From a virus: DNA of 28,608 nucleotides. The notes under the pieces were generated by a model, which saw nothing but the letters and a program-made list of their open reading frames with translations, searched no databases and was not told where the DNA came from. The DNA is taken from the IMG/VR virus record IMGVR_UViG_3300040751_002426, positions 1-28,608 of that record; one strand, 5' to 3'. Shown one piece after another: positions 10,742 through 20,377 of the stretch (position 1 is its first letter; every line of letters begins with the position of its first letter). The position numbers and the translations under genes were made by a program.

Positions 10742-10853
10742 AATTATAGGAAACATATATCATCAATTAACACTTCGATTTTATCTATATCGAGCAAAAC
10801 GTATCTGCAGGAAAGCAGATTCTCTTTTAATAAAGCATATTAAAAACTCTTGA
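10734..10853 (+). CDS. 39-residue basic hypothetical protein
   Basis: ATG at 10734 overlaps the end of the mini-Smr gene by 8 nt and runs to TGA at 10851-10853. The product, beginning MFRIIGNIYHQL, is very basic (eight Arg or Lys in the last 24 residues) and could form an amphipathic helix. The stop codon forms part of the -35 element of the next promoter. Support comes from gene packing and from filling an otherwise empty 140-nt gap; function unknown. Confidence 0.45.
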   Translation: MFRIIGNIYHQLTLRFYLYRAKRICRKADSLLIKHIKNS

Positions 10854-10877
10854 CAATTACAGTATTTTTGCTATAAT
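10850..10877 (+). promoter_or_regulatory. sigma70-type promoter (perfect hexamers)
   Basis: TTGACA (10850-10855), 16-bp spacer, TATAAT (10872-10877). The TGA of the preceding frame lies inside the -35. The ATG of the next gene is 6 nt after the -10, so initiation would occur at or beside the ATG at 10884, predicting a leaderless mRNA. Confidence 0.8.
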
Positions 10878-10883
10878 AATACT

Positions 10884-11096
10884 ATGTTAATTAATACAGT
10901 CTTTTTAATAGGTTTCATACTTCTAGCAGGTGTGATTATCGAAGGTGCCTGGAAGAACTTTAATATCGATCTTTCTGGTACTCCTATTTGGTTTCAACTT
11001 ATTATGCCCTTTGTAGCGGTCGGATTGTATTTTTGGATTATATATTTAATCTTTTCTGGTATTGGTAATTTTTTATATAATTTTACTTATGGTTGA
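10884..11096 (+). CDS. small two-helix membrane protein
   Basis: The 70-aa protein has two strong membrane segments, at about residues 3-22 (INTVFLIGFILLAGVIIEGA) and 38-62 (FQLIMPFVAVGLYFWIIYLI), separated by a short loop. No Shine-Dalgarno sequence is present, and the start coincides with the predicted transcription start of the promoter directly upstream. Its stop TGA is embedded in the -35 of the next promoter. An inner-membrane location and a host-takeover or lysis-control role are conceivable; nothing in the sequence decides. Confidence 0.65.
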   Translation: MLINTVFLIGFILLAGVIIEGAWKNFNIDLSGTPIWFQLIMPFVAVGLYFWIIYLIFSGIGNFLYNFTYG

Positions 11097-11120
11097 CAAT
11101 ATCAAAAACGATAGTATAAT
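11093..11120 (+). promoter_or_regulatory. sigma70-type promoter for the AAA+ ATPase gene
   Basis: TTGACA (11093-11098), 16-bp spacer, TATAAT (11115-11120). Again the TGA of the upstream gene (11094-11096) lies inside the -35. Predicted start near 11127 leaves a leader of about 34 nt with GGGAGG at 11146-11151. Confidence 0.8.
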
Positions 11121-11160
11121 ATAACTATATTTTAAATTAATGCTGTGGGAGGCAATCAAT

Positions 11161-12180
11161 ATGAAATCATTTGTTAAAATTAAAAAAGGTACTTACCGTA
11201 ATGCACCTATTAAAGATGCGGTTTTTCCAGTAGTTAAGCCACTTTCATTTGGTAAGAAAGGACCGTTTGTAACGGTTGATGGTTCTGCTTTAATGGGCAG
11301 TACTGCTAAAAAAATTAGAGTGTTAGTAGCATCACCATTAGATGTAACACCTAGTTCACAGGAAGAATACAAATCCTTGATGCCAGTTAAGGAAACTACT
11401 AAGAAAAAAGAAACTCCAGAACAGGCTATGGATAGAATCAAAGGTCGTTTTGAAGTATTAGATAAGATGACCGATGCAGTTGCTAATGGTAATGTAAGAG
11501 GACTTATTGTTAGTGGTCCTCCAGGAGTTGGTAAAAGTTTTGGTGTAGAAACTATACTTGATGAGTATGAAGCAATGGCTAAATTATCAGGTCAGTCTAG
11601 AACTGAAATGGTAAAAGGTGCAATGACACCGATTGGGTTATTTCAAACATTATTTAATAATTCGAATGCAGGAGACATTCTTGTATTTGATGACTGCGAT
11701 AGTATTTTATTTGATGAAGTTTGTTTAAACATGCTTAAGGCTGTTTTAGATTCTGGTAAAAAGAGAACTATTACTTGGAAAGCAGAGTCTAACGTTTTAA
11801 GAAGAGAAGGTATACCTGAAAGATTTGATTTTAAGGGTGGTTGTATTTTTATTACTAATGTCAACTTTGAAAATGTTAGAAGTAAAAAGATCAAAGATCA
11901 CTTAGACGCACTTATGTCAAGGTGCCATTATTTAGATTTAGGTATGGACTCTACAAGTGATAAGTTCTTAAGAATTAACCAAATCGTTAGAGATGGTATG
12001 CTTAAAGAATACGGATTCAGCAAAGAGTTCGAAAAAGAAATCATAGACTTTATGGTTTTGAAAAGTGCTAGACTTAGAGAGATAAGTTTAAGAATGGTAC
12101 TAAAAATTGCTGACTTGGCTAAGATGGATTTCGATAATTGGAAATCAATTGCTGAGTCAACATGTATGAGACGTTCATAG
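11161..12180 (+). CDS. AAA+ ATPase of unknown target
   Basis: The 339-aa protein carries a complete AAA+ module in its C-terminal two thirds: Walker A GPPGVGKS at 119-126, Walker B ILVFDDCD at 173-180, sensor 1 IFITN at 229-233, a candidate arginine finger at R254 (LMSRCHYLDL) and a sensor 2-like helix LREISLRM near 305-312. The N-terminal 90 residues are basic and beta-rich and could be a substrate- or DNA-binding domain. It lacks the SRC motif and overall pattern of clamp loader gp44, so I do not assign it there. The start at 11161 is preferred over an upstream ATG at 11140 because GGGAGG at 11146-11151 has proper spacing only to 11161. It is a single-gene unit between its own promoter and a strong terminator. 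Confidence 0.85.
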   Translation: MKSFVKIKKGTYRNAPIKDAVFPVVKPLSFGKKGPFVTVDGSALMGSTAKKIRVLVASPLDVTPSSQEEYKSLMPVKETTKKKETPEQAMDRIKGRFEVLDKMTDAVANGNVRGLIVSGPPGVGKSFGVETILDEYEAMAKLSGQSRTEMVKGAMTPIGLFQTLFNNSNAGDILVFDDCDSILFDEVCLNMLKAVLDSGKKRTITWKAESNVLRREGIPERFDFKGGCIFITNVNFENVRSKKIKDHLDALMSRCHYLDLGMDSTSDKFLRINQIVRDGMLKEYGFSKEFEKEIIDFMVLKSARLREISLRMVLKIADLAKMDFDNWKSIAESTCMRRS

Positions 12181-12227
12181 TTTCATACTCCCCCTAGTGT
12201 TCAAAACCCTCCCACTTTGAGCACTTT

Positions 12228-12260
12228 GAAACCCTCAAATTTATTTGGGGGTTTCTTTTT
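12228..12260 (+). terminator. rho-independent terminator after the AAA+ ATPase gene
   Basis: GAAACCCTCAAAT (12228-12240) pairs with ATTTGGGGGTTTC (12243-12255): 13 potential pairs with one G-U, the innermost opening to form the loop. Five T follow immediately at 12256-12260. It is the only convincing intrinsic terminator in the window and separates the replication block from the receptor-like gene. Confidence 0.9.
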
Positions 12261-12269
12261 ATAAAACTC

Positions 12270-12297
12270 TTGACAATACTTAAAAGTCATGTATAAT
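12270..12297 (+). promoter_or_regulatory. sigma70-type promoter for the TonB-dependent receptor-like gene
   Basis: TTGACA (12270-12275), 16-bp spacer, TATAAT (12292-12297), 9 nt after the terminator T-tract. Predicted start about 12304, giving a leader of about 30 nt with GGAGA at 12326-12330 before the ATG at 12334. Confidence 0.82.
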
Positions 12298-12333
12298 TAG
12301 TACTTAATGAACTATATCTTTTTTTGGAGAAAT

Positions 12334-14073
12334 ATGAATAAATTAGATAAGAACTTTCATATCAATATGTCTCCTTTATATTTAACATTTGTTTTCATGA
12401 TTTTTATGTTATGGGCAAGTGAAGTAAAAGGCGATGAGATAGAAGAAATTATTGTAACTGCTCAACAAGAGGAAACTGTGGTAGCAAATCCTGTTACATC
12501 AAGTAGCCTTATTAGTGCAATACAAGAAGACTTTACATACTCACAAGGTGGATATGGTGGTTTTGTAGGCTACAATGAGCGAGGTGCTCAAACAATACAT
12601 ACATCAGTTTATGTAAATGGTATACCAGCAAATGGCACAGGCAGTGGTTGGTATGATTTTGGACACGATTTTGCAAGTGGACAAACTGTAAAGGTTATTT
12701 CAGGTGCAAACGGAGTGTTATATGGCTCAGGTAGTATTGCTGGTGCAATACTTATTACTGATACAATTGATAGCGGTTTAACAGTACGGCTCGAAGACGA
12801 TATAAAATTTGCCAGAGTTGCACCTACTGATTCAATTGAATTTAGTATGATAAACGATGGCATGGATAGTGTTCGCAACGACAATGATGAAGAAGACAGT
12901 TACAAAAATAAAACTGCAAGGTTTGATGTTGATGCTGGAGACTTTAATCTAGTAGGCAAATATACAGATTACGAATATGATTATGACAACTGTTATACTT
13001 CAAGTTTCTCTCAAAGCAATGACTGTTTACAAGACGGCGAACGTTACAATGTTGCTATTAGAAACAACATACTAACATTAGGTAGAGCATACGAAAAATC
13101 AGAATACTTTACTGAAGGTGATTCAACATACGTGAATGAAAACTATAGAGACTTTCTTAGAGTTGGTAAGCAAATGATTCTAAGTAACAAACTAAATGTT
13201 ACATACGGTCTAGATGCAGAACAGCAACACTATAAAACATCATCTCCTTATAGTTCAAACATATATGAAGATGAGAACTTTGCTGTATTCATGTCTGCTA
13301 ATGCTGACTTTGTAATGAGTTACAACTTTGGATTTAGACTAGGTAACGATGATCAAAATGCTCTTAGACTTGGTATTGAAAATGGACCATGGTATTTTAA
13401 CATTGGTGACAGTTTTAGAAAACCTAACTTGTATGAAAAGTTTGGTGATGCCTATGTCGATGGCGACGAAGATCTAAAGCCTGAAGAAGGTATTGGATAT
13501 GAATTAGGCTTTGGCGTTATGAGTTTATTTAGATATGAGTTCGATGAAACAATTGAGTATGTAGCAGGATATTCTACTACTGTAGTTGTAGAACCAGAAG
13601 TAAGTGTAACAGATCCTGACACAGGTGAAGTTACTGTAACACCTGCTGTAACAGAAGATGTGTACACAAATGCCACGTACGCAAATGGTGGTGATTACAT
13701 CACACAAGGTTTTAGATTTGCTAATAACTTTGGACCAGTGTATTTAAGTTTAAAGTATACAGATACTGAACAACCTAGAGTACCAAAAATATCAGGTGCT
13801 GTACAATACAGTAAAGATGTTTATGGTGTAAATCTTAGAATTAAGTATGCAGTACAACTAGATAGAGAACCTAGTCAATATGATGTACTACCAGAAGGAC
13901 AAACAAAGTTAGATGATCTTAAGAAGTTAAATTTTTATGCTACTAAAGATTTCAATAACGGATTTGTTTTATCGTTTAAGGTAGAAAATATCACAGACGA
14001 AGATGTTGAAGTAGTTCCTTTCTATGGAGTTGAAGGTACTGAATATTATTTGACATTAGGCTATAAGTGGTAG
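12334..14073 (+). CDS. TonB-dependent outer-membrane receptor-like protein
   Basis: The 579-aa protein has the plan of a TonB-dependent receptor, which imports scarce ligands (metal chelates, cobalamin, sugars) across the outer membrane. Residues 1-33 look like a signal peptide, with core YLTFVFMIFMLWAS and likely cleavage after KG. The mature N-terminus, DEIEEIIVTAQ, contains a TonB-box-like stretch. Residues about 50-142 resemble the plug, including NERGAQTIHTSVYVNGIP and ISGANGVLYGSGSIAGAI. The rest is beta-barrel-like with alternating hydrophobic strands, the conserved FRKPNLYEKFGD...DEDLKPEEGIGYELGF region near 360-392, VENITDEDVE near the end, and a C-terminal aromatic residue (YKW). 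The only cysteines seen, C220 and C231, could close a loop disulfide. It is as short as BtuB. Start chosen for GGAGA; an in-frame ATG at 12307 would be nearly leaderless. Ligand and purpose in a phage are unknown. Confidence 0.85.
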   Translation: MNKLDKNFHINMSPLYLTFVFMIFMLWASEVKGDEIEEIIVTAQQEETVVANPVTSSSLISAIQEDFTYSQGGYGGFVGYNERGAQTIHTSVYVNGIPANGTGSGWYDFGHDFASGQTVKVISGANGVLYGSGSIAGAILITDTIDSGLTVRLEDDIKFARVAPTDSIEFSMINDGMDSVRNDNDEEDSYKNKTARFDVDAGDFNLVGKYTDYEYDYDNCYTSSFSQSNDCLQDGERYNVAIRNNILTLGRAYEKSEYFTEGDSTYVNENYRDFLRVGKQMILSNKLNVTYGLDAEQQHYKTSSPYSSNIYEDENFAVFMSANADFVMSYNFGFRLGNDDQNALRLGIENGPWYFNIGDSFRKPNLYEKFGDAYVDGDEDLKPEEGIGYELGFGVMSLFRYEFDETIEYVAGYSTTVVVEPEVSVTDPDTGEVTVTPAVTEDVYTNATYANGGDYITQGFRFANNFGPVYLSLKYTDTEQPRVPKISGAVQYSKDVYGVNLRIKYAVQLDREPSQYDVLPEGQTKLDDLKKLNFYATKDFNNGFVLSFKVENITDEDVEVVPFYGVEGTEYYLTLGYKW

Positions 14074-14079
14074 TATAAT
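14050..14079 (+). promoter_or_regulatory. sigma70-type promoter for uvsW inside the receptor-like gene end
   Basis: TTGACA (14050-14055) lies in the last codons of the receptor-like gene and TATAAT (14074-14079) directly follows its stop, with an 18-bp spacer. The uvsW ATG at 14085 is 5 nt after the -10, predicting a leaderless transcript. Confidence 0.7.
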
Positions 14080-14084
14080 AAATT

Positions 14085-15542
14085 ATGGGTAAATGTGTTT
14101 TAGAAATTAGAGACGAAGTAAATGTTCGTTTCACAGGACTTGATGTTAAAACAAGGCGTAAAATTTCAGATGAAGTAAAATACTTTTTACCTTATGCCTA
14201 TCATATGCCTGCTTATAAATTGGGCAGATGGGACGGCTGTATTAGATATTGTGATATAGGCGGTAGAACATATTTTCATTTATTAGAAAGATTACTGCCT
14301 ATTGTTACTGGTGACGGATACGAAATAGAAGTAGTTGACAACAGAACAAAATGGGATTTCAGTTTTACTTCTGTAAAACAAGATAGTTATAGTCACGTAA
14401 CTTGGCCTAAAGGTCATACTGTAGCAGGAACACCAATTCAGTTAAGAGATTATCAAGTAGATATTGTAAATAAATTTTTAGAAAATCCACAATGTTTACA
14501 AGAAATTGCCACAGGTGCAGGTAAAACTCTTGTTACAGCAGTACTTAGTGAAAAATGTGAGGAGTACGGCAGAACAGTAGTTATTGTACCTAACAAAGAT
14601 CTTGTTGTGCAAACAGAAAAAGATTACAAAAACTTAGGACTTGACGTAGGTGTCCTTTATGGCGACAGGAAAGAGTATGACAAAACACATACAATTTGTA
14701 CATGGCAAAGTTTAGCAGTATTAGAAAAGAAAACTAAGTCATATGAAGCAGAAGTAGACATTGATGTATTCTTAGATAACGTTGTTTGTGTAATGGTCGA
14801 CGAAGTTCATAAGGCAAAAGCAGATGTATTACAAAAACTTCTTAGCGGAGTGTTTGCCAATGTCCCTATTAGATGGGGACTAACTGGCACTATACCAAAA
14901 GACGAACATGAAGCAATTGGTTGTTTGGTGAGTTTAGGCCCAGTTGAAGGTAAGATGAGCAGTAAAGAATTACAGGATATGGGTGTACTAGCAGATTTAG
15001 ATATTACTATTCTACAACTACAAGATGGAATGATGGGATTCAGCACATACGCACAAGAACTTAAATGGTTAGTTACAGACCCAAAAAGAATAGATCAGTT
15101 AAGTAACATTATCTCAGGCTATGCTAATAACGGTAATACACTAGTTCTTATAGATAGAATTGCTACAGGAGAAATGTTAGCAGAAAGAAATAAAGATTGG
15201 GTTTTTGTAAGTGGGTCTATGAAGACTCAAGATAGACAAGATGAATATGCAGAAATCAGCGAAATGGATAATAAAGTCATTGTTGCTACATACGGTGTAG
15301 CGGCAGTAGGTATCAACATACCAAGAATATTTAATCTTATAATGTTGGAACCAGGTAAGAGTTTTGTGAGAGTAATACAAAGCATTGGAAGAGGTATTAG
15401 AAAAGCACAGGATAAAGATTATGTCAATGTGGTTGACATAACGAGTAATTTAAAGTATAGTAAGAGACACTTGACTAAAAGGAAAGCCTTTTACCGAGAG
15501 CAGAATTTTAGACATACAGTAACTAAAGTGGAGTATAAATGA
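14085..15542 (+). CDS. uvsW: UvsW, recombination/repair helicase
   Basis: The 485-aa protein is a superfamily 2 helicase of the UvsW type, which remodels branched DNA and R-loops and controls the switch to recombination-dependent replication. A small N-terminal domain (1-100) holds the family-typical KLGRWDGCIRY near 45-55. The helicase core has the Q-like QLRDYQ at 119-124, Walker A ATGAGKT at 142-148, DEVH at 239-242, GLTGT at 265-269, and motif VI SIGRGIRKA near 438. Length agrees with T4 UvsW (about 500 aa). No Shine-Dalgarno sequence precedes the ATG. The 3' end overlaps the next gene by 4 nt. Confidence 0.95.
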   Translation: MGKCVLEIRDEVNVRFTGLDVKTRRKISDEVKYFLPYAYHMPAYKLGRWDGCIRYCDIGGRTYFHLLERLLPIVTGDGYEIEVVDNRTKWDFSFTSVKQDSYSHVTWPKGHTVAGTPIQLRDYQVDIVNKFLENPQCLQEIATGAGKTLVTAVLSEKCEEYGRTVVIVPNKDLVVQTEKDYKNLGLDVGVLYGDRKEYDKTHTICTWQSLAVLEKKTKSYEAEVDIDVFLDNVVCVMVDEVHKAKADVLQKLLSGVFANVPIRWGLTGTIPKDEHEAIGCLVSLGPVEGKMSSKELQDMGVLADLDITILQLQDGMMGFSTYAQELKWLVTDPKRIDQLSNIISGYANNGNTLVLIDRIATGEMLAERNKDWVFVSGSMKTQDRQDEYAEISEMDNKVIVATYGVAAVGINIPRIFNLIMLEPGKSFVRVIQSIGRGIRKAQDKDYVNVVDITSNLKYSKRHLTKRKAFYREQNFRHTVTKVEYK

Positions 15543-18750: not shown

Positions 18751-19848
18751 ATGTATCAATTTACAAGTGAAAGTGTCAGTGAAGGGCATCCAGATAAAAT
18801 AGCAGACTTGATATCCGATAAAGTAGCAACATACTTGCTGAATAATGAAATTAATAATAGGACAGCAATTGAAACGTTAGTTACAACCAATATGGTTACA
18901 TTGGCAGGAGAATATAAAACTAATATAGAAGTTGATAATAACTACATAGACGAAATCGTTAGACAAACAGTTAAAGAAATAGGTTACGAACAAACAGGGT
19001 TTCATTGGAAGAATTTAAAAATCTATAATGAACTACATGGCCAAAGCGAAGACATTGCATTAGGTACAGACTCATTTGGGGCAGGCGATCAAGGAATAAT
19101 GTTTGGATATGCATGTAATGAAAATGAACATTACATGCCATCACCACTAATATACTGTCATAAAATTTTAGAATCTTTAAGTGATAGTAGAAAAAATGAT
19201 TCTGAATATAGCATTATTAGACCAGACAGCAAAGCACAGATAACATTTAACTATGCAAATACAGGCGAACCTATCGACATTGATAAAGTATTAGTTAGTA
19301 CTCAACACAGCGAAGATAGTACACAGGATCAAGTAAAAGAACTAGTTCACAAAACAATTAGTAAAGTAGTACCAAATGAATTACTAAAAAATGCTGAGTA
19401 CTTAATAAATCCAACTGGTAGATTTGTTATCGGTGGACCAGATGGAGATACTGGACTTACTGGAAGAAAAATTATTGTTGATACTTATGGAGGAGCCGCA
19501 CCTCATGGTGGCGGAGCATTTAGTGGTAAAGATCCTTCTAAAGTTGATAGAAGTGCGGCTTATATGGCTAGATGGATAGCAAAAAATATTGTTAAACGAT
19601 ATAATTTTAAGAATGTATTAGTTCAAATAAGTTATGCTATAGGAGTTGTGCAACCAACATCATTAGTAATCTTTACTGATGGTAAGATAAATGAAAATAT
19701 AATCCAACAGGTAAAAGATCAAGTAGATTTATCTCCGTTAGGTATTATACAAAGATTTGGATTAGGTTGTCCTACACCACTAGACATTAGTACTAACTAT
19801 GGACATTTTGGTAAAGATCATTTACCATGGGAAAGAGATGATTTATAA
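18751..19848 (+). CDS. metK: S-adenosylmethionine synthetase (MetK)
   Basis: The 365-aa enzyme makes S-adenosylmethionine from methionine and ATP. It aligns along its whole length with bacterial MetK: TSESVSEGHPDKIADLISDK (residues 5-24), GAGDQGIMFGYACNE (110-124), STQHSED (183-189), INPTGRFVIGGPDGDTGLTG (219-238), and GGGAFSGKDPSKVDRSAAYM (253-272). These cover the ATP, methionine and metal sites. It ends at YGHFGKDHLPWERDD, about a dozen residues short of E. coli MetK (384 aa), with no catalytic part missing. AAGGAAA precedes the ATG. Its last codons overlap apt. The enzyme could sustain SAM for DNA or RNA methylation during infection. Clearly of bacterial origin, with codon use adapted to the phage. 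Confidence 0.96.
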   Translation: MYQFTSESVSEGHPDKIADLISDKVATYLLNNEINNRTAIETLVTTNMVTLAGEYKTNIEVDNNYIDEIVRQTVKEIGYEQTGFHWKNLKIYNELHGQSEDIALGTDSFGAGDQGIMFGYACNENEHYMPSPLIYCHKILESLSDSRKNDSEYSIIRPDSKAQITFNYANTGEPIDIDKVLVSTQHSEDSTQDQVKELVHKTISKVVPNELLKNAEYLINPTGRFVIGGPDGDTGLTGRKIIVDTYGGAAPHGGGAFSGKDPSKVDRSAAYMARWIAKNIVKRYNFKNVLVQISYAIGVVQPTSLVIFTDGKINENIIQQVKDQVDLSPLGIIQRFGLGCPTPLDISTNYGHFGKDHLPWERDDL

Positions 19849-20377
19849 TTTAAAAGATATTATACGCACAGTACCTGACTATCCTATACCAGGAATACAG
19901 TTTAGAGATATTACAAGTATTACAGATAATGCCGACGCATTTAGTAGTACAATTATACAATTATCAGTTGCTACAGCAAAATTTAATGCTAACACTATAA
20001 TTGGTATTGAAAGTAGAGGATTTGTTTTTGGAGCACCAGTTGCCGCAAAATTTCATTTACCGCATATACTTGCTAGAAAACCTAGCAAATTGCCTAACGA
20101 AACATTTAGTAAACCCTTTAAATTAGAATATGGAGAAACAGAAATACATATACAAAAAATTTCTCCTATAAAAGGTAATGTTGTAATTATAGATGACTTG
20201 ATTGCAACAGGTGGTACTGCTATTGCAACAGCAGACTTAGTTCATGAAAATTGGGGTATACCAAAAGAACATATTCTAATACTTGCAGTAATAGATCTAC
20301 CAGACCTTAAAGGAAGTACTATTATTAAAGATCAAGGATACAATGTCGAAACACTTATAGAATTTGATGGAGAATAA
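19838..20377 (+). CDS. apt: adenine phosphoribosyltransferase (Apt)
   Basis: The 179-aa enzyme converts adenine and PRPP to AMP. It has the typical N-terminal motif IRTVPDYPIPGIQFRDIT at 9-26, the flexible-loop region IIGIESRGFVFGAPVA at 54-69, ARKPSKLP, and the PRPP loop VVIIDDLIATGGTA at 115-128. Length equals the family norm (about 180 aa). The start at 19838 lies 11 nt inside metK; an upstream in-frame ATG at 19799 would add a tail without family similarity. Adenine is released when SAM-derived by-products (methylthioadenosine, S-adenosylhomocysteine) are cleaved by the host nucleosidase, so coupling apt to metK makes metabolic sense. Confidence 0.95.
   Translation: MIYNLKDIIRTVPDYPIPGIQFRDITSITDNADAFSSTIIQLSVATAKFNANTIIGIESRGFVFGAPVAAKFHLPHILARKPSKLPNETFSKPFKLEYGETEIHIQKISPIKGNVVIIDDLIATGGTAIATADLVHENWGIPKEHILILAVIDLPDLKGSTIIKDQGYNVETLIEFDGE

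Follow-up and report, generated by a model that had tools for sequence, protein, structure and literature searches.

Outer-membrane receptors are textbook phage targets, and here one is encoded by a conserved phage gene with its own promoter, which raises the question of what such a receptor does in a virus. The gene lies in a linear IMG/VR record of 28.6 kb, a metagenomic contig that was analysed over its whole length (28,608 nucleotides; hereafter the window). T4-type genes of the window include those for the terminase large subunit, gp32-like and UvsX-like proteins, UvsW, a gp41-like helicase and primase, some of these names having been assigned from sequence and gene order without a family scan. 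The terminase has its nearest match, at 59%, in Pseudomonas phage PA5oct and related phages of about 287 kb, and contigs of the window's relatives reach 340 kb. No receptor is annotated ahead of the uvsW-like gene of PA5oct.

The receptor gene and its relation to BtuB

The first-pass annotation had described a complete gene for a protein resembling TonB-dependent receptors (TBDRs), and its coordinates, frame and length hold (Table 1). The longest open reading frame begins at 12307, a start that was disfavoured against 12334 given the GGAG 4 nt before the latter and the end of the -10 box (12292-12297), from which a transcript start near 12304 is expected. The signal peptide, TonB box, FRKPNLYEKFGD...LKPEE motif, two cysteines and C-terminal Trp listed in that annotation are all present in the encoded protein. 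As a family feature the Trp does not stand, since just 53 of 101 complete members end with it, the last residue of the others being mostly P, K or R. The cysteines (C220 and C231) are the only two in the receptor, and the loop-3 motif that contains them is a family feature found in 111 of 114 distinct members. Residues E37, E38 and V41 of the TonB box are invariant in an alignment of 26 representatives, and the pattern of the box is present in 89 of the 114. The cleavage site of the signal peptide was placed by eye. An unusual n-region, DKNFHINMSPLY (window positions 12340-12381), lies ahead of the hydrophobic core of the signal peptide and is kept across deep divergence; some branches carry another leader (MEEFFHKHIIK...).

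Table 1. Features of the receptor gene and its flanks (positions in the window)
Feature	Position	Strand	Basis or remark
AAA ATPase (phrog_1250), upstream neighbour	11140..12180	+	Pfam AAA 9.6e-6, phrog_1250 5.7e-85; syntenic in relatives
Intrinsic terminator, 12 pairs, T-run	12228..12255	+	terminator scan; separates AAA gene from receptor gene
Sigma-70 promoter TTGACA-16-TATAAT of receptor gene	12270..12297	+	12/12 hexamer bases
Ribosome-binding site GGAG	12326..12329	+	sequence; 4 nt 5' of ATG 12334
BtuB-like TBDR	12334..14073	+	intact frame, 579 codons; Pfam Plug, profiles, predicted fold
Signal-peptide-like N-terminus, residues 1-33, conserved n-region DKNFHIN.SPLY	12334..12432	+	sequence and alignment
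TonB box IEEIIVTA, residues 36-43	12439..12462	+	alignment
Plug domain, about residues 44-143	12463..12762	+	Pfam Plug
Predicted 22-strand barrel, residues 148-579	12775..14070	+	AlphaFold model, Foldseek
Loop 2 acidic motif RNDNDEEDSY	12874..12903	+	aligned with BtuB calcium loop
Loop 3 YEYDYDNC...NDCL with Cys pair C220, C231	12970..13029	+	sequence/alignment
Loop 7 motif RKPNLYEKFGDAYVDGDEDLKPE, BtuB type	13417..13485	+	alignment with BtuB
Variable loop 8 (contains VTDPDTGEVTVTPAV)	13564..13683	+	conservation by region
uvsW promoter TTGACATTAGGCTATAAGTGGTAGTATAAT	14050..14079	+	within receptor's last codons (LTLGYKW-stop)
UvsW-type helicase, downstream neighbour	14085..15542	+	phrog_16 2.3e-74

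Searches with Pfam models supported the proposal in part: Plug matched the receptor above its cut-off (E=4.7e-7; 30.7 bits versus a gathering score of 23.9), whereas the barrel model TonB_dep_Rec, which describes sequence and sets no criterion for structure, gave no match at E<=1; support for the barrel comes from the predicted fold and from BtuB profiles. An AlphaFold2 model computed from the alignment of 26 family members (pLDDT 78.6, pTM 0.73) contains a plug followed by 22 barrel strands, counted manually in its DSSP string. A predicted fold without plug or barrel would have refuted the first reading; the model has both, and its best structural match is indeed a TBDR, the top Foldseek match in the PDB being BtuB bound to TonB (E=3.7e-19, TM about 0.7).

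Profiles pointed in the same direction as the fold. A PDB search with the 26-member phage profile matched six sequences, all of them BtuB (E=2e-10), and neither siderophore nor haem receptors reached E=0.01. When five E. coli receptors were scored with the family profile, BtuB obtained 42.2 bits, followed by CirA (11.3), FepA (6.5), FhuA (-0.7) and FecA (-0.8). TIGR01779, the NCBIfam model for the B12 receptor, matched the window receptor (1.7e-6, 26.9 bits) and, over nearly full length, two distant relatives (L055, 1.2e-11; L079, 1.8e-12); its equivalog cut-off of 599.7 bits was reached neither by the window receptor nor by the best relative (46.6 bits). B12-receptor models were the sole full-length NCBIfam matches, and such a model was also the top NCBIfam match of all ten cellular relatives examined, which came from 399 Pseudomonadota genomes. 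Thus, by profile and predicted fold, the closest known family of the phage receptor is BtuB, to which it is about 21% identical.

At that identity TBDR ligands are hard to predict, and a siderophore, haem, a metal or another chelate could pass through the same fold. The plug part weakly matches haem/haemoglobin receptor models, and PirA and FepA-type siderophore receptors come close behind BtuB in the Foldseek ranking. However, the lack of siderophore and haem receptors in the PDB profile search, together with the restriction of full-length matches to B12-receptor models and the top rank of these models for the ten cellular relatives, speaks against a ligand of this kind, which we consider unlikely.

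The calcium-cage aspartates of BtuB, which we take to be residues 179, 193, 195, 230 and 241, were located in four alignments with the phage family. Asp193 and Asp195 paired with invariant acidic phage residues in all four and Tyr229-Asp230 with an invariant Tyr-Asp in three; Asp179 had no consistent acidic counterpart, and the match of Asp241 varied with the alignment. Across alignments, p for the acidic matches ranged from 0.017 to 0.22. In BtuB itself, two calcium ions bound by five aspartates increase the affinity for cobalamin about 1000-fold, and the ligand is touched by loop 3 (PMC7360065). The alignments are suggestive of a BtuB-like cage in the phage receptor and do not prove one.

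Locus, spread and variation of the family

Outer-membrane receptors are abundant host genes and the window is a metagenomic contig, so the gene might have entered it by chimeric assembly or contamination, or might be a decaying host gene. Synteny refutes these readings, including the chimeric assembly that would have undone the first-pass annotation. Two IMG/VR scans with family members gave 125 and 130 matching stretches, in overlapping sets, and the fetched loci contained at least 114 distinct receptor sequences, of which 101 were complete. Most members lie directly between the AAA ATPase gene and uvsW; this order was observed in tens of independent contigs with 36-100% TBDR identity, the first-pass annotation having proposed to look for the gene at the same locus in related phage contigs, and receptor-bearing contigs with conserved gene order include ones of 217-340 kb. 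So that loci would not be chosen by the receptor itself, a scan with the UvsW protein was also run and the 80 loci nearest the window were taken, 78 of them informative, i.e. with enough upstream sequence. The receptor preceded uvsW in 68 (87%; near clade only). The other ten were empty, reading AAA gene, terminator, uvsW promoter and uvsW with nothing between, an absence that concerns the locus only, as the contigs are fragments; terminator-like stems also sit before uvsW in these relatives. Such empty sites, the completeness of 101 of 114 distinct sequences and dN/dS values of 0.08-0.37 in the closest receptor pairs, from which the gene is judged to evolve under purifying selection, argue against chimerism and decay alike. 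These readings are further countered by the failure to find a close cellular copy or donor: two GTDB genome scans gave only enterobacterial BtuB, at about 22%, and in the 399 Pseudomonadota genomes no score exceeded 60 bits, versus more than 700 for phage members. We regard an artefact or a relic as practically ruled out.

In a tree with cellular receptors, the phage receptors formed one clade with full support and a long stem. The phylogeny suggested at the outset was informative to that extent only, since the clade was not placed with BtuB and its cellular sister was left unresolved by long branches.

A second genomic home of the receptor lies in the baseplate region, where a gene resembling MTA/SAH nucleosidases ends 5 nt before it. 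This arrangement was observed at 9453-11983 of L010 and also in L013, L014, L025, L027, L031, L044 and others, and receptors of the L010 type and of the L025/L031 type branch separately in the receptor tree. A 250 kb relative (L244-L256) carries, at about 88.7-93.1 kb, a cluster of exported-protein genes that by eye resembles a curli operon (CsgA-like repeats, a CsgG-like lipoprotein and a CsgF-like protein), as well as a plastocyanin/azurin-family protein at 3.7 kb (Pfam Copper-bind 4.2e-18) and a CHASE2/cyclase-like protein at 83.3 kb.

Perfect TTGACA/TATAAT sites occur four times in the window, versus 0.04 expected from shuffles. All four are on the + strand within 10850-14079 (3.2 kb), and none is found elsewhere in the window. 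Of 38 relatives checked, 22 have a comparable promoter ahead of the receptor gene, those without it belonging mostly to more distant clades or to the second locus, and the uvsW promoter inside the receptor 3' end is retained in many relatives. As far as promoter sequence allows a judgement, 10850-14079 reads as an early-type transcription region.

Conservation differs along the protein. Within the barrel, conservation is highest in loops 2, 3 and 7, mean pairwise identity being 0.74 for loop 2 (the highest) and 0.73 for loop 3, compared with 0.66 for the plug. The long charged loop to which the first-pass annotation drew attention is real and corresponds to loop 8, the least conserved region (0.38, with 32% gaps). 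Differences between close relatives are uneven along the locus. Compared with the window, L008 is 98-100% identical in the AAA gene and 90-99% in most of uvsW, yet identity falls to 61-78% over the greater part of the receptor gene; L043 behaves similarly, with about 90-99% in uvsW against about 60-78% across most of the receptor; and L003 is identical from the second half of the receptor gene on and diverged upstream. Based on these identity patterns, receptor alleles are inferred to be swapped by recombination between otherwise nearly identical phages.

Possible role in the infected cell

The reading we favour, at about an even chance of being right, is that the gene encodes a functional BtuB-type transporter through which cobalamin, or a corrinoid close to it, is taken up with the help of host TonB, the ligand being inferred. 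Host RNA polymerase with sigma-70 would transcribe the gene from its own promoter, early action again being an inference. The product is presumed to be exported by the Sec and Bam routes and to become part of the infected cell's outer membrane, where it would engage host TonB. Energisation by TonB is likewise inferred, and the host protein would be needed because no TonB_C match was obtained in 13 phage records. Acidic, probably calcium-binding outer loops would be used as in BtuB, and the corrinoid would be brought into the periplasm.

The supposed benefit is a supply of cobalamin to enzymes of host or phage in the course of a large phage's long infection; possible consumers are radical-SAM proteins that bind B12 and the methionine synthase of the S-adenosylmethionine cycle. 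Radical-SAM proteins matching a B12-binding domain were noted in the largest relatives, the receptor-carrying contigs L259, L260 and L261; only two of these contigs, whose proteins are near-identical, exceed the curated cut-off for the domain, and the third falls short of it. In the window, metK overlaps apt (adenine phosphoribosyltransferase) at 18751-20377, a pair for S-adenosylmethionine and adenine salvage. A demand from the S-adenosylmethionine cycle is conceivable because of the radical-SAM/B12-binding proteins of the relatives and of metK and apt in the window. Both metK and apt also occur in relatives without the receptor, so a receptor-specific link to them was dropped. A class II, B12-dependent ribonucleotide reductase was also rejected as consumer: matches of about 770 aa fell far below the NrdJ cut-off, and the phage enzyme reads as class I-like, hence not B12-dependent. 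Rfam found no cobalamin riboswitch in the window. These points weigh against the cobalamin reading, as do the low identity to BtuB, the score far below the equivalog cut-off, the clade's failure to group with BtuB and the unreliable matches of Asp179 and Asp241.

Exclusion of rivals is the main alternative to uptake and may operate alongside it. The phage receptor could replace or outcompete host receptors, or tie up TonB, and thereby shut out TonB-dependent phages and colicin-like bacteriocins, with uptake secondary. BtuB does serve as a phage receptor, e.g. for Yersinia phage phiR2-01 (PMC8624392), and a related idea has been published for a phage S-layer protein (PMC9004378). An own promoter would suit early expression, the allele swapping seen with L008 and L043 fits, and strong variation of surface loop 8 is expected if it is targeted by others. 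Yet no other part of the barrel is conserved as strongly as loops 2, 3 and 7 on the ligand side, and TonB box and plug are kept, not all of which a decoy needs; moreover, a receptor on the infected cell could equally let competitors in. Defence of the surface as principal function seems to us rather unlikely. Among the roles initially listed (uptake of a metal chelate, cobalamin or sugar, interference with competing phages and colicin-like toxins, or change of the host surface), the sequence evidence leads to the cobalamin receptor family, and exclusion of phages or colicins is not ruled out.

With regard to the uptake reading, a broader proposal can be made only tentatively, its chances being slightly below even: that a lineage of large T4-type phages adopted a TBDR as a near-core early gene that remodels cobalamin uptake, its alleles being exchanged by homologous recombination like those of tail-fibre genes. 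Vitamin B12 limits many aquatic microbes. Infected cells may import it, or exclude rivals, through a virus-made receptor, and virus-made B12 receptors would tie infection to vitamin traffic. If true, virus-encoded, TonB-energised vitamin uptake would represent a novel type of auxiliary function. The receptor family makes the question testable, as it offers one gene with natural alleles for comparison.

Comparison with known systems

The phage receptor shares with BtuB (TIGR01779; PDB 1nqh, 2gsk) the plug, the 22-strand barrel, the TonB box, the FRKP..LKPEE motif of loop 7 and acidic loops 2 and 3, and the two are of similar length (579 codons versus 614). Unlike BtuB, it is phage-borne, has only 21% identity and scores far below the equivalog cut-off, carries a Cys pair in loop 3, leaves one calcium Asp unmatched, and has a sigma-70 promoter and no detected riboswitch. 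The Lc porin of phage PA-2, a temperate phage, is a phage-encoded porin that replaces host porins. It is thus another phage-encoded outer-membrane barrel that alters the host surface; in contrast to the receptor described here, it is a porin without plug or TonB box and is borne by a temperate phage.

Other phages with TBDRs are on record. Marine megaphage Mar_Mega_1, marine and very large, carries a SusC-like TBDR, in the accessible part of whose description no family, locus or promoter analysis was found (PMC9723777). BFVD entry A0A8D9FQQ5 (SusC, uncultured marine phage) is probably this protein or a near relative. The SusC-type phage TBDR differs from ours in being longer (805-residue model), with 11% identity and a TM of merely 0.41-0.55. 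Pelagiphage Skadi-1, also a marine phage, has an annotated TBDR between tail tube and capsid genes, which its authors take as a hint to the adsorption receptor (PMC10504331). A search of INPHARED phages with two family members returned nothing but two Salmonella records holding chromosomal BtuB, and in the open-access literature searched no BtuB-like family was found that occupies one fixed locus throughout a phage lineage. Phage-borne TBDRs are hence not wholly new, the BtuB-like family appears to be undescribed, and the findings suggest that a widespread group of large T4-type phages re-equips the surface of the infected cell with an uptake receptor of its own.
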